A DNA stretch of 64,000 nt from Phycisphaerae bacterium (GTDB taxonomy: Bacteria; Planctomycetota; Phycisphaerae; Phycisphaerales; UBA1924). Below the pieces are notes generated by a model, which was not told the origin of the DNA, searched no databases, and saw only the letters and a program-made list of their open reading frames with translations. The first letter of the stretch is position 1. The number at the start of each line of letters is the position of its first letter. Of this stretch, positions 42,393 to 49,592 are shown piece by piece. The stretch lies in contig JAUIES010000001.1 in NCBI GenBank assembly GCA_030429705.1, positions 992,001 through 1,056,000 of the forward strand. Reading direction: 5' to 3'. A program made the position numbers and the translations under genes.

Positions 42393-44642
42393 TTACGCTG
42401 CAGACGCAATGGATGGATCGAGGTTGAGTGCAATGCAGGCGGCCGTCCCACCGCCTTGTCTCGCTTCGACCCAGATTCTCCCGCCAAGCAACTCGATACC
42501 ACGCCTTGCCTTGGCGAGACCAAATCCGCGTTGGCGTCCCGCTGGCTTTTCGCTAAAGAACGGATCGAACGCGTGTCGCAAGGCTTTCTCGCTCAAACCA
42601 CACCCACGATCCTCGATACGAAAGTACAGTCGGCCAGCATCGGGGTCAGCATGAACACGCATCCGAACCTTCTCTGCGGAACACGCTTCATGCGCATTCA
42701 CAAACAGTTCTTCAAGCGCGTGCGCCAATAGTTTTCGGTCGGTCACCATCGATCCGGCTTCGGCATCAATCTCGACCTCGACTTCGATCGGATGACCAAT
42801 GCGATCCGTCGCGAGCGCCAGCGCATCGCGGACAACTTCCGTCGCGTCCGATAGTGCCAAAGTGGGCTCACTCATGCGAGCGAGCACATTGAGATCCGTT
42901 ATCAGATCACTGAGGTCCGCAGCAGAGGCAGCGATGGCTGCAGCGCAGCCACCCAGTTCGGTGCCTTCGAGTTTGGAGCACAACATCTGAGCGCGACCGT
43001 GTATCACCGCCAGCGGATTGTTCATTTCGTGCGCAGCCCCGGCGGTCATTTCTCCAAGCCGAGCCATTGAGGCTCGTTCGGCAAGTTCTGACTGCATCTC
43101 GCCGAGTGCCCTGTTCGCCGTTGCCAGATCATCTTCAAGACCTCGCGAACGATTGATGACGCTCGCTGCACGGACAGATGAAGCCCACACCGAACGCATC
43201 GGACCAAGATCGGTCCGCTCGTTCCACCCCGACAACTCGGCGTTGTGGATCAGAATAACCTCGATGTCGTCATCGATCGCGATCGGAAACACGCGCACGG
43301 ATTCAACTTCAGCAGCGCCATCAAAGAATGAATCGAGGCAAGGAAGCACAGAACTCGCAGCCACACCCATTCCACCGGATGGTCCGAGTATTTCACGCAA
43401 CCGCTGCTTCATAAGAGGCAGCGTGACCGCGTGTGGGTGCTCATCGTCGCAGGATGCCCCGGCGTGCATGAATCGACATGAACCGTCTGTGCTTGATCGC
43501 CATACGATGCCGCAGTATGTCGCTCCAAACAATGATGCTGCAGACCTGCGAATCGACGCGAGCGTCTTCTCCATGGGCTGCCCGCAATCGAGTTGATCAA
43601 GGAATGTCGCTGTGTATCGCGCGATCAACTCGCGTCGACGACCGGCCCGAGCTTGCTTTTCGAGTGACGCGTTGAGTGATCCAAGGCGTTGATTGGCTCG
43701 AGCGATCGCTTGAAGCAAGGCTTCAGGGGGTGTCTCAGAACCAAGCCCGATGATCGACTCTCGATCAACGATGTCTTCGAGCAAATGCTGGACGAGGTCG
43801 GGCAGTTTTGCAGCAGGGATGCTGGCAGCCTCGGCAAAACTGCCGATCGGTGCGTCCGCTGCAAAATCACCGCTCCAACCCAGATGGTGCTTTTGGCACC
43901 ACGCACTCGCGAGGGAGACTGTCGCAATCATGGATCGTGGAGCGGAACCTGGCACTGCTTCGAGTGGTTGGCCATTGAACCAGATGACATCGCGCAGCCA
44001 GTGGGGAAGCCCCCACCGATCCGCCAAGCGACGCCCGACGGTGTGGTGGTCAATCCCGAGAATCGCACGCTCGACAGAAGCACCCTTGGCATGTTTCTGC
44101 TCGGCGATCGCGAGTGCGCGGTCGTACGCCTGTGGCAGCACCATGTGTAACACCAGTTTGCCGAGACCGTGCAATAACCCGGCCAAGAAGGCCATGTCAG
44201 GCTCGACTTCTGGATCAGAACTTTCCTTCGCGAGCAGTTGAGAAGCGCACGCCACAGCGACTGCGTGTTTCCAGAATCCGTGATTGTCGAAACCCGTCTG
44301 CGTCGAAAGGTCCTGCGCACTCGACCGCACTTCAAACAAGTCGAGCACCTCGACACTGAGCACCGCAGAGCGAACGGTGTCGAGCCCGAGCAACATGATG
44401 GCTTGCTTGACCGATGTGATTCGATGACTCAGACCTAGATCGGCAGCACGCACGAGTTTTAACACGGTGGCTGACAGCGCAACATCGGTCTCGATCAGTT
44501 GCGCCACCTGCGCAAGGTCGACATCGTCAACATCAGTGACTTCAAGCAACCGCGCCGCAATCGGCGAAAGCGTGGGCAGGCGATCCACCTGCTGCAAGAT
44601 GGTTTCAATTTGTCGGGCGCGATCCGCCTGCCTGTCGGTCAT
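42393..44642 (-). CDS. HDOD domain-histidine kinase fusion
   Basis: A 749-residue protein with an unusual order. An HDOD domain (about 15-215) opens it (LPTLSPIAARLLEVTD, DVALSATVLKLVRAADLGL, AGLLHGLGKLVLHM), then a GAF-like region (about 330-480), a short coiled coil and a histidine kinase module. The H box is LGEMTAGAAHEMNNPLAVIHG near residue 537, the N box LEELFVNAHEAC, G1 IEDRGCGLS and G2 RGFGLAKARRGIELLGG. HDOD domains are usually found in regulators of the cell cycle, motility or c-di-GMP signalling. No membrane segments are seen, so it is soluble. It lies between two receiver-type proteins, likely partners. Confidence 0.85.
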   Translation of the reverse strand: MTDRQADRARQIETILQQVDRLPTLSPIAARLLEVTDVDDVDLAQVAQLIETDVALSATVLKLVRAADLGLSHRITSVKQAIMLLGLDTVRSAVLSVEVLDLFEVRSSAQDLSTQTGFDNHGFWKHAVAVACASQLLAKESSDPEVEPDMAFLAGLLHGLGKLVLHMVLPQAYDRALAIAEQKHAKGASVERAILGIDHHTVGRRLADRWGLPHWLRDVIWFNGQPLEAVPGSAPRSMIATVSLASAWCQKHHLGWSGDFAADAPIGSFAEAASIPAAKLPDLVQHLLEDIVDRESIIGLGSETPPEALLQAIARANQRLGSLNASLEKQARAGRRRELIARYTATFLDQLDCGQPMEKTLASIRRSAASLFGATYCGIVWRSSTDGSCRFMHAGASCDDEHPHAVTLPLMKQRLREILGPSGGMGVAASSVLPCLDSFFDGAAEVESVRVFPIAIDDDIEVILIHNAELSGWNERTDLGPMRSVWASSVRAASVINRSRGLEDDLATANRALGEMQSELAERASMARLGEMTAGAAHEMNNPLAVIHGRAQMLCSKLEGTELGGCAAAIAASAADLSDLITDLNVLARMSEPTLALSDATEVVRDALALATDRIGHPIEVEVEIDAEAGSMVTDRKLLAHALEELFVNAHEACSAEKVRMRVHADPDAGRLYFRIEDRGCGLSEKALRHAFDPFFSEKPAGRQRGFGLAKARRGIELLGGRIWVEARQGGGTAACIALNLDPSIASAA

Positions 44643-44654
44643 CGCACCCCCTCG

Positions 44655-45263
44655 TCAAACGGCTGGTGATTCAAGAAGGTCGTGGATTCGACTCGCGATG
44701 TCGTCAATGTCGAACGGCTTTTTGATGAAGTCATCCGCACCGGATTCGAGCAGCGCACGAATCTCCTGTTCGTCCACGACACCGCTGATAAACAGGATCT
44801 TGATATCGCGCGTCGACTCGCGGTTCTTGATGCGTTCGCACACAACATTGCCGTTGATATCAGGGAGCATGTAGTCGAGAATGATGACATGCGGCTTGAA
44901 TGACTCAGTCAACAGGCCGGCCTCGTAACCCGTAAGCGCTGTTTCCACCTCGAACTGACCGTCGCGCGTCAGGACATCAACGAGCAACCCGTTGATCGCT
45001 TCATCGTCATCGACAATCAAGACGCGCTTTCGACCCCCCTCGATCGAATCGAGCGGAATGCCATTGGTCTTCATGAACCGCATCAACTCGGCACGCGGTA
45101 TGCGGCGGAACTTCGACCCCGGAACGCGGAAACCGGTCAACCGTCCGCTGTCGAAGCACCGAATGATGGTCTGCTGACTCACCTTGCACACCTGGGCCGC
45201 TTCGCCGGTCGTAAAGACCTTTTTGTCGGCCCACTGGTTTTGCTTGGCTTCGCCGCTTGCCAT
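44655..45263 (-). CDS. Response regulator with N-terminal excisionase-like HTH domain
   Basis: About 202 residues. An N-terminal DNA-binding domain of the MerR/excisionase type lies within residues 16-65 (VFTTGEAAQVCKVSQQTIIR, then CFDSGRLTGFRVPGSKFRRI), and the receiver follows (about 78-195): RVLIVDDDEAINGLLV, VIILDYMLPDINGN and DDFIKKPFD. The order is the reverse of the usual receiver-then-output plan. I chose the ATG at 45263, just after GGAGG; the frame is open to 45353. It precedes the HDOD-kinase gene by 12 bases and is the likely phosphorylation target and DNA-binding output of the cluster. Confidence 0.85.
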   Translation of the reverse strand: MASGEAKQNQWADKKVFTTGEAAQVCKVSQQTIIRCFDSGRLTGFRVPGSKFRRIPRAELMRFMKTNGIPLDSIEGGRKRVLIVDDDEAINGLLVDVLTRDGQFEVETALTGYEAGLLTESFKPHVIILDYMLPDINGNVVCERIKNRESTRDIKILFISGVVDEQEIRALLESGADDFIKKPFDIDDIASRIHDLLESPAV

Positions 45264-45457
45264 CATGCCTCCATCTGCGTGTCGTCTCAAACGCCCGATC
45301 GATCCGCATCGACCGCCCAAAACCCCCAGATTCACGAGTGGATATCGGCGCAATGAGCAGGTGACTTCATTCGGTCAAGCTGTTGCCACACACATCGTGA
45401 CTTGTTGGCACCCGCGCGCACAAGACCCCCCTCACTTTGCGGAGAGACCTCTACAAT

Positions 45458-46164: not shown

Positions 46165-46291
46165 AAGCAAGAATAGGTCTCAGCACACCCAGAACCACGG
46201 TCGATCACACTTCATCAATCGTCGCGCACAAAAAACGAGCGACCCTCACGATGGAGAATCGCCCGCGAAAAAATATGCAGTTGCAATCCGT

Positions 46292-46984
46292 TTACGCAGC
46301 CTGGGTGGTGCCGTTGCAGGTGGTGGCCCCCTGCGGATTGAAGCAGAAGAACGGGTTGAAAGCAGCGAACGGGTATGGGTACGCACCGTTGCCTTGCGGC
46401 GTAGTGGCCGACTGCTCGGTTGAGCCATTGGTTTCAGTCTGGGTCACCGGTGACTGGTTCCACCAGCCAAAGGGCACGCCTGCGAAAGGGACGCCGCCGA
46501 ACGGGAACGACTGATTCCATCCTGTAGCAGCACCAAAGGGACTAAAACCGCCCCAGTTGCTGGCGCCGAATGAAGGTGTCGTCCCGTTCCATGACTGACC
46601 TTGCCAGAAACCGGGGAAGCCGCCGAACGCACTGGGGGTGTTGAAGCCACCAAAGCCCGAGAAGCCGTTGGTGTTCCAGGGGGTGTTGCCGAAGAAACTG
46701 TTGTTCCAGTTGGTGCTGTTCCAGTCACCTGAGAACGGTGTTGCGTTTTGGTTGAATCCACCAAACGACGAGCCGGTGTTCCATGACGGTGATTGGTTCC
46801 AGTTGTTAAACCCGCTCCAGGGTGTGGTGGTGGTGTTCTGCCAATTCCAAGGCTGATTGTTCCAGTTGCCGGGGAACTGGCCGTATGTGTTGTTCTGTTG
46901 ATTCCATGGCTGGTTAAAGCCGTTAAACCCGTTGCTGGGCTGCGTGCCAAAACCATTGAAACCAGTTTGGGGGAAGAAGTTCAT
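46292..46984 (-). CDS. Low-complexity F/G/N/W-rich protein
   Basis: A 230-residue protein made almost wholly of Phe, Gly, Asn, Trp, Gln, Ser, Thr and Pro. Repeating FG, GF, NW and WN steps run from the start (FPQTGFNGFGTQPSNGFNGF) to about residue 190; the end is milder and has two cysteines near residues 215-223. There are almost no charged residues and no signal peptide or membrane helix. The ATG at 46984 has a GGAG site upstream. Such aromatic-Gly-Asn composition recalls FG-nucleoporin or prion-like phase-separating sequences, but this is similarity of composition only. No known family is recognised. Confidence 0.75.
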   Translation of the reverse strand: MNFFPQTGFNGFGTQPSNGFNGFNQPWNQQNNTYGQFPGNWNNQPWNWQNTTTTPWSGFNNWNQSPSWNTGSSFGGFNQNATPFSGDWNSTNWNNSFFGNTPWNTNGFSGFGGFNTPSAFGGFPGFWQGQSWNGTTPSFGASNWGGFSPFGAATGWNQSFPFGGVPFAGVPFGWWNQSPVTQTETNGSTEQSATTPQGNGAYPYPFAAFNPFFCFNPQGATTCNGTTQAA

Positions 46985-47209
46985 GGATCGATTCTCCGTT
47001 GCAAGACCGCTGACAGTCGGCCGGCATGCACCGTGCACCCCATGCGCCGATCGAGTCCGACCTCATGCTCGAAGCCGCTCTCTCGTGCGAACCCACTGTC
47101 CGTGGACTCAATGGATCGGCAGGCAAACACCCGACCTTCGCAAAAAGTCAGTATGCGTACAAATTCATTTGCACGGTCGGCAAGAAGTGCGCCCTTCGCA
47201 GCGAATGGC

Positions 47210-48175
47210 TTACGGGCATCCGGCGCTGAACTGTGACAGAAACGCCTGGACATCGAAGAAATCAAACACGCCGTCGTCGACAAAATTGGCTGCTTCGTTC
47301 TTGTTGGCGAAATGGTTCAAGAACAGCAGCACATCAAAGAAATCGAGTTTGCCGTCGAGATTGAGATCGGGTGCACATGGATCGACCATGGTCTCTTCAA
47401 TCCACGAAGCATACAGCGTGATCTTGGTCGCCCCATGCACATCGTCATAGTTCCCCAGCACCCCATCACCCGAGCCATCAAGACTTTCCTGAATGAATGA
47501 GGTCACCGCGACAACTTCCCAGCCGTTGCCTGTGTCGCGCATCACCGGCCCGCCGCTGTCATTGAACGCGCCCATACATTCGAGAGGCGTTTCAAAACCT
47601 GAGCCTGGCGCATCGAAATAGAACCCGATGTAGTGCAGGCCGATGCTGGTCAGATCCCATTCGACGGTGTTCGTCCCTGCGCGGAGTTGCTCCCCCCCAT
47701 GATCTGTCAGACCGACAAGCCCTGTACCGGTCCACCCGACCCCGGCGATATCGACGACATCGTCCAAACCCGCGTGCGATTGCGCAATCGGGATGGGTGC
47801 GATATCGTCTATCGGTGTCGTTAGTCGCATCAGAGCGATGTCATGGTTGTTATTCAGGTTGCCCGTCCAGAATGGATGAATGAAGACCTCCGCGACTTCG
47901 TGGTTCGATTCGCTGAGTACAAACACCCAGTCTTCGCTGTCGTCAGCAACATGGGCAGCCGTCAGTACCCACTGAGGGTCGACCAGCGTGCCCGTTCCCC
48001 GAAGGCTTCCCCCCGCCGTGCGCATCTGTCCAACCGCGTCTTATCGACTCTCTTGAGCACGCGCCAGATAGGCACTGTCCGCGACATCATGTCGGCGGAT
48101 GATGCCCAGTGACGAGCCGCACACCATCAACACACAAATGGAGCCGAGACCAACGCGCAGGCTTGCTTGTTTCAT
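47210..48175 (-). pseudogene. Trypsin-like protease with dockerin-like tail, interrupted by an in-frame TAA
   Basis: A full frame runs from an ATG at 48175 (with GAGGGG upstream) to the stop at 47210, broken only by TAA at 48041-48043, codon 45. The first 44 codons give a signal peptide (MKQASLRVGLGSICVLMVCG) and the pro-region start RRHDVADSAYLARAQESR. After the stop come DAVGQM and a trypsin domain: VLTAAHVADD, HDIALMRL and the serine motif FNDSGGPV. A two-repeat dockerin-like tail (DLNLDGKLDFFDVLLFLNHF and DDGVFDFFDVQAF) ends in AGCP. Re-initiation at the ATG at 48025 would yield a protease without a signal peptide. A single base change restores a sense codon, so decay is recent or it is a sequencing error. 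Confidence 0.75.
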
Positions 48176-49242: not shown

Positions 49243-49592
49243 TGGAGCCGGGGGGAATCGAACCCCCGTCCCAGAGCAGTCAGCAGGATGCTTCTACGCG
49301 CGTAGTCGATGTATTGAGTCTCGGCATCGTGCCGGCCATCGACAGCCTGCACTTCCGCCCAGCGTCCAAAAACCTCCTCGCACGACTGTCTGGATGCACC
49401 CCAGTCGTACCAGCCTGATAATCATGATCCCCCGCCCCATCAGGCGTCAGGTGGGGGATCGGAAGCGTAATTACGCCGCCATTGCGAGCTGCGGTTTGGC
49501 AGTCATTAAATTTGCGTGCTTTTTACGAGGCCAACACGCCCCTCGGCACGCCACATCAAGCCTTCCCTGCCCGGTCGAAACCTGTCGGCCCC
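49243..49592 (-). ncRNA. ssrA: Transfer-messenger RNA (tmRNA)
   Basis: tmRNA rescues stalled ribosomes and tags the unfinished protein for breakdown. The minus strand starts with GGGGCCGACAGGTTTCGACC and ends with a T-arm GGTTCGATTCCCCCC and CGGCTCC plus a discriminator A; the ends pair over seven base pairs with one G-U. CCA is not encoded. The tag frame runs from the resume codon GCA at 49515 to TAA at 49471 and codes ANLMTAKPQLAMAA, ending in AA as tags for ClpXP-type proteases do. A one-piece (not permuted) form of about 350 bases. A terminator follows directly. Confidence 0.95.

Follow-up and report, generated by a model that had tools for sequence, protein, structure and literature searches.

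Prion-like low-complexity domains contain 15–20% aromatic residues at uniform spacing, and their patterning is kept despite drift of the sequence (PMC9748015). In prokaryotic low-complexity regions, aromatics and Asn are heavily under-represented (PMC6821194). PopZ, the polar condensate scaffold of Caulobacter, has an acidic and proline-rich disordered part and a helical C-terminus (PMC9512792). In E. coli, the terminal Ala-Ala of the ssrA tag is the main determinant for ClpXP, and related ends occur in other cellular proteins (PMC7652416). Titles and beginnings of abstracts in the openly accessible literature held nothing on point regarding FG, disordered or prion-like proteins of planctomycetes.

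Here we describe a gene for an F/G/N/W-rich protein from a Phycisphaerae bacterium. It lies in a stretch of 64,000 nt of contig JAUIES010000001.1, the whole of which is referred to as the window. The gene belongs to a real family of uncharged, aromatic-rich proteins, which is unnamed in the libraries searched here.

The Gene and the Composition of Its Product

The positions of the gene and its elements are listed in Table 1. The original prediction of about 190 residues built of FG, GF, NW and WN steps with almost no charge was confirmed: the low-complexity body comprises about 185 of the 230 residues, and the protein has 21 FG/GF and 16 NW/WN steps. It consists of 13.5% F, 7.0% W, 1.3% Y, 15.7% N, 15.7% G, 8.3% Q and 11.3% T; aromatics make up 21.7% and N+G+Q+S+T 59%. 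D+E account for 1.3% and K+R+H are absent. None of 108 control ORFs (≥150 aa, same neighbourhoods) came near these values (aromatics at most 12.5%, charged residues at least 12.6%); these controls stem from a rough ORF caller and some are perhaps on the wrong strand.

Table 1. Elements of the F/G/N/W-rich protein gene (positions in the window).
Feature	Position	Strand	Basis
Gene (230 aa) of the F/G/N/W-rich product, start codon ATG at 46984	46292..46984	-	ORF; homologues in frame
Low-complexity body, residues 1-185, uncharged, mean 4.1 residues per aromatic, largest gap 8	46430..46984	-	composition and spacing computation
Conserved C-terminal box: last 35 residues and stop, core YPYPFAAFNPFFCFNPQGATTCNGTTQAA, Ala-Ala end	46292..46399	-	alignments; leave-one-genus-out test of the last 45 residues
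Shine-Dalgarno site (ACGGAGA), with the end of its GGAG 9 nt from the ATG	46993..46999	-	sequence
Intrinsic terminator: hairpin (46266-46235) followed by T run	46230..46266	-	computed hairpin search

The ribosome site and the clean frame that had been taken as signs of expression also held up, and the homologues keep the frame. Coding status was further backed by the differences between homologues, the majority of which fell on third codon positions in five of six pairs compared. A Shine-Dalgarno-like site was seen by eye before the start in all nine members of the family with visible upstream DNA. An origin of the gene from satellite DNA was rejected, with only two short, weak tandem arrays (scores 46 and 35) present in 46200-47100.

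Neither the window protein nor its nine relatives matched Pfam, NCBIfam or PHROGs (one match of a single member to Ank_4, E 0.71, was regarded as noise). Among PDB sequences there was no match below E 0.48, and matches at or above this value were disregarded. AlphaFold2 modelled the window protein from the single sequence with a mean pLDDT of 39 and no secondary structure. The low pLDDT agrees with disorder, an agreement that is weak for a model made without an alignment.

Homologues Occur in a Minority of Genomes of One Taxonomic Family

A search with the single sequence at E 0.001 matched 1 of 61 genomes, the window's own, with this gene as the sole match. A more permissive search covered 163 genomes of the source's taxonomic family and found a copy in genome G113 (E 5.7e-6, 42% identity over residues 4-230). 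Its tail was close to that of the window protein and followed the pattern [GA]AYPxPFxxFxPFxCxNPQ...C...TQAA. A profile of the tail matched G079 (E 1.2e-11), G032 (E 2.7e-9) and, weakly, G107 (0.0075, confirmed by inspection); at a match in G075 with E 0.53, a similar ORF was seen on inspection. A tail profile built from five members added G106 (E 6.6e-11) and the weak matches G176 (0.0087), G064 (0.0089) and G065 (0.033), which were accepted on inspection of the ORFs. For these later finds, E values from subsequent searches are high by construction, since the members were then part of the profile. The C-terminal signature finds relatives that are overlooked by ordinary single-sequence searches.

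Together, the iterated profile searches detected the gene in 10 of the 163 genomes (nine firm members, one probable) and in 7 of 74 genera. The absence of homologues from relatives, which would have counted against a function according to the original prediction, was not what we found. A full-length profile missed the G176 copy despite including it in its build; detection is therefore imperfect and ten is a lower bound. The patchy distribution implies that the function is dispensable.

We also searched samples of the order, the class and the phylum, which overlap and contain members of the family. Beyond the family, six of 400 genomes of the order (E up to 0.1) and four of 397 genomes of the class (E up to 0.01) gave matches, none of which coincided with an uncharged, F/W-rich ORF. 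The same was true for one match at E up to 0.01 in 392 genomes of the phylum, which had stops inside. Beside, not at, one match (L193) there was a short V/C/F-rich ORF. Weak matches with a retrieved locus were screened by composition, and all except the members named above were put down to chance. Two scans of a genome-contig collection with exact peptide patterns gave no relative in a collection that may not include carrier genomes. In the samples searched, the gene family was convincingly found nowhere beyond the source's taxonomic family.

Composition Is Kept while the Sequence Drifts, and the C-Terminus Is Conserved

In all ten members the sequence drifts and the composition is kept, with 18.6–25.6% aromatics (above 20% in nine) and 1.3–4.4% charged residues. 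For a test of homology beyond composition, each member and its same-genus partner were held out, a profile was made from the rest, and the held-out member was scored against 300 shuffles of itself. The last 45 residues scored better than all 300 shuffles in nine of ten members (33.8–58.6 bits vs. shuffle maxima of 9.7–21.5). The middle region exceeded all shuffles in eight members, and in each of the remaining two it scored better than 298 of the 300. Conservation was weak in the first 40 residues, where 1 to 35 of the 300 shuffles reached the real score in the nine members tested.

The exception in the test of the last 45 residues was the G075 copy (L088), with 7.1 bits and 19 of 300 shuffles equally good. 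Its protein ends in VA and no T run follows its hairpin. We call this member probable because of its composition, its gene order and its middle region, whose score was equalled by 2 of 300 shuffles. In the other nine members, the box YPxPFGGFxPFxxxNP...TQAA/ACAA is conserved beyond composition. Each of the five pairs compared agreed more closely over the last 35 residues than over the body, with 97% vs. 70% identity in L085/L086, for instance.

Nei-Gojobori estimates within genera gave a dN of 0.15 and a dS of 0.39 (dN/dS about 0.39) for L085/L086, and a dN of 0.35 and a dS of 1.42 (about 0.25) for L087/L151. For L149/L150, dN (0.49) was higher than dS (0.41), values that are unreliable due to a gapped alignment and third positions that are nearly all G/C; we took this pair to speak against a strong constraint on the precise sequence. 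Three comparisons of the window gene with other genera gave dN of 0.40–0.53 and dS of 1.24–3.35, the latter partly saturated.

The Aromatic Residues Are Evenly Spaced

We compared the gaps between F, W and Y in the body, after trimming of the last 45 residues, with 2000 shuffles per member. The coefficient of variation of the gaps was 0.41–0.58, as opposed to shuffle means of 0.80–0.86. All ten members were more even than their shuffles, and at most 0.2% of the shuffles were as even as the real sequence. The z-values were -2.26 to -3.63 for the members, while none of 92 control ORFs, taken from the same neighbourhoods and called by the same rough procedure as above, fell below -2 (lowest -1.66). 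The mean gap was 3.3–4.7 residues across members. Among dipeptides, WN was enriched 4.2-fold, PF 3.1-fold, TP 3.0-fold, FG 2.0-fold and GF 1.9-fold, and FF was depleted to 0.2. Spacing, composition and C-terminal box were kept across genera. A genuine bacterial gene thus lies at this locus of the window and encodes a near-uncharged, apparently disordered protein with evenly spaced aromatics.

The family shares all three features of prion-like domains: a somewhat higher content of aromatics in a mostly polar sequence, uniform spacing, and composition and patterning that are kept. Of the suggestion that the protein is of a phase-separating or mesh-forming type, the unusual composition proved real and the even spacing in all ten members adds to it; the accompanying hint at FG-nucleoporins and internal membranes found no support.

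Transcription Unit and Gene Order

A hairpin with T run was present within 75 bases of the stop in nine of ten members vs. 5 of 103 control ORFs, by a criterion set after the hairpins had already been viewed. Since the hairpin and T run are so close to the stop, transcription seems to end directly after the gene in these nine members, and the gene seems to be a transcription unit with its own intrinsic terminator. Gibbs sampling of eight upstream regions (the near-duplicate L086 was excluded) yielded information contents barely above those of block-shuffled nulls (12.73 vs. a maximum of 12.15; 14.67 vs. 13.69) at scattered positions, and we therefore claim no upstream motif.

In G075, G176 and G065, which represent three genera, the gene apparently occupies one common slot. 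On one side of it are a beta-lactamase-fold hydrolase and what we take to be a second hydrolase in G075, the presumed second hydrolase in G176, and the beta-lactamase-fold hydrolase, with an ORF between, in G065. On the other side, G176 and G065 both have glycerol-3-phosphate dehydrogenase and a P-type ATPase. In G113 the family gene and this same beta-lactamase-fold gene are about 8.5 kb apart. Two further genomes of the genus of G075 have either no gene in the slot (G073, hydrolase and dehydrogenase separated by about 260 bases) or a different ORF (G076). The empty slot of G073 (L181:6320-6578) retains a terminator-like hairpin, which could be left over from a copy since lost or could belong to the dehydrogenase gene as its terminator. 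The gene has other surroundings in the window's genome, in G032/G079 and in G106/G107, and the G064 copy is at a contig end. This slot pattern favours an old locus that would have undergone losses and moves over a recent transfer.

There was no neighbour gene common to all loci. At the tsaB locus, no such ORF was present within 1.5 kb on either side in the 28 other genomes whose tsaB locus was retrieved, among them G032, which has its copy elsewhere. Linkage to a pair of Ser/Thr kinase and ECF sigma factor (three loci, domains confirmed at one) was set aside because no such pair was seen at the other loci. In both genomes of one genus, tRNA-Tyr is located just upstream of the family gene (L087:9066-9149 and L151:7273-7356), with a Ser/Thr kinase and an ECF sigma factor adjoining. 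In the window, the adjoining gene at 47210-48025 (-) encodes a trypsin-like protease (PF00089), whose C-terminus we take to resemble the dockerin-like repeats known from planctomycetes. An unusual two-component pair is encoded at 42393-45353 (-), where a protein with HDOD and histidine kinase parts adjoins a helix-turn-helix and receiver protein.

Ala-Ala Ends

Nine of the ten members end in Ala-Ala (TQAA, ACAA, NCAA, CKAA) compared to 2 of 108 control ORFs; the ends are inherited, so these are not nine independent observations. The tmRNA gene of the window (49243-49592, -) lies 2.3 kb upstream of the family gene and has the tag AKPQLAMAA. The Ala-Ala ends, the tmRNA tag and the precedent of ssrA in E. 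coli make it plausible, by analogy, that the terminus is a candidate ClpXP-type degron.

Possible Function

As the best reading of these data, to which we give roughly an even chance, the protein would be a cytosolic sticker-and-spacer scaffold whose conserved C-terminal box serves for docking and which may also carry a degron of the ClpXP type. From the sequence data we infer a cytosolic, intrinsically disordered and highly expressed protein, in which F, W and Y would act as stickers at even intervals and N, G, T, S, Q and P as spacers. Weak mutual binding of the stickers of many copies could then lead to a condensate or hydrogel, as for prion-like low-complexity domains. The box YPxPFGGFxPFxxxNP may be a short segment for docking or assembly, through which the protein is brought to a partner or site, and turnover through the final Ala-Ala by ClpXP-type proteases would hold the sticky protein in check. 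A more far-reaching proposal is doubtful and offered tentatively: the family could be a lineage-specific scaffold of a membraneless compartment, with uncharged, evenly spaced F/W stickers, targeting by YPxPFGGFxPF and ssrA-like Ala-Ala proteolysis, convergent with eukaryotic prion-like domains.

Other functions were weighed against the cytosolic scaffold. Some extracellular structural proteins are also rich in Asn, Gly and aromatics and uncharged, and a trypsin-like protease gene adjoins in the window; a matrix protein with a structural or adhesive role outside the cell (holdfast, biofilm or amyloid-like) would, however, have to be exported by an unrecognised route. By inspection, the window protein and the other eight complete members have no Sec signal (basic N-terminus, hydrophobic stretch), nor were signal peptides, lipoboxes or prepilin leaders seen in any of these nine. 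With no neighbour common to all loci either, we consider a matrix protein unlikely. The missing export signal, like the uncharged and aromatic-rich composition, would also suit a coat of cytosolic inclusions (storage granule, phasin-like) whose aromatics bind a hydrophobic surface, and the patchiness would resemble that of an accessory storage trait. Pfam gave no phasin match, however, and a polymer synthesis gene was absent among the ten annotated neighbour proteins, which are a minority of the neighbours; such a coat seems distinctly improbable to us.

Patchy presence could also reflect a mobile or selfish gene that has no cellular role and is kept by transfer alone. tmRNA and tRNA genes are common integration sites, and a tmRNA gene is nearby in the window, as is tRNA-Tyr in the two relatives of one genus. 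The shared location in different genera, the two within-genus pairs whose dN is lower than their dS and the lack of matches in plasmid and phage records (tblastn, low-complexity filter on) and in IMG/VR viral contigs (peptide patterns) argue against this, and we judge it quite improbable. A bacterial counterpart of FG-nucleoporins, acting as a selective meshwork within a pore that crosses internal membranes, would take up the compositional likeness noted in the original prediction; we regard it as highly improbable. FG and GF steps are about twofold above expectation, but WN (4.2-fold), PF (3.1-fold) and TP (3.0-fold) all exceed FG (2.0-fold), there was no nucleoporin match in Pfam or PDB, and the gene was detected in just 10 of 163 genomes. 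The aromatics, one every 3.3–4.7 residues, are also denser than the FG repeats of nucleoporins, which are more sparsely spaced. For the planctomycete Gemmata obscuriglobus, pore-like structures have been reported (PMC5287468), in a text that does not contain the terms "FG repeat" or "FG-nup", and another study prefers a Gram-negative cell plan (PMC5394234).

Comparison with Known Systems

The family resembles the ssrA tag and ClpXP C-degrons in having a tail that ends in Ala-Ala and has no predicted structure, in a genome whose tmRNA tag ends in MAA; it differs from them in the residue before Ala-Ala, which is Q, C or K and not L or M. With PopZ it has in common that a bacterial protein combines a putatively disordered part with a conserved C-terminal element. 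Unlike PopZ, it is almost chargeless (D+E 1.3% in the window protein), and the low-confidence model has no helix. FG-nucleoporins share the FG/GF steps and the low charge, whereas in the family FG is not the dominant motif, as WN, PF and TP are enriched above it, and no database match links the two. Prion-like domains of the FUS and hnRNPA1 type are the closer likeness: they, too, have polar spacers, many evenly spaced aromatics and a drifting sequence with fixed composition. In contrast to these domains, to which it has no sequence match, the family consists of small stand-alone bacterial proteins, uses mainly F and W, is almost chargeless and has its own conserved C-terminal box. A bacterial family that is rich in aromatics and Asn and follows the spacing rule of eukaryotic condensates offers a natural test of whether condensation by stickers and spacers arose independently in bacteria.
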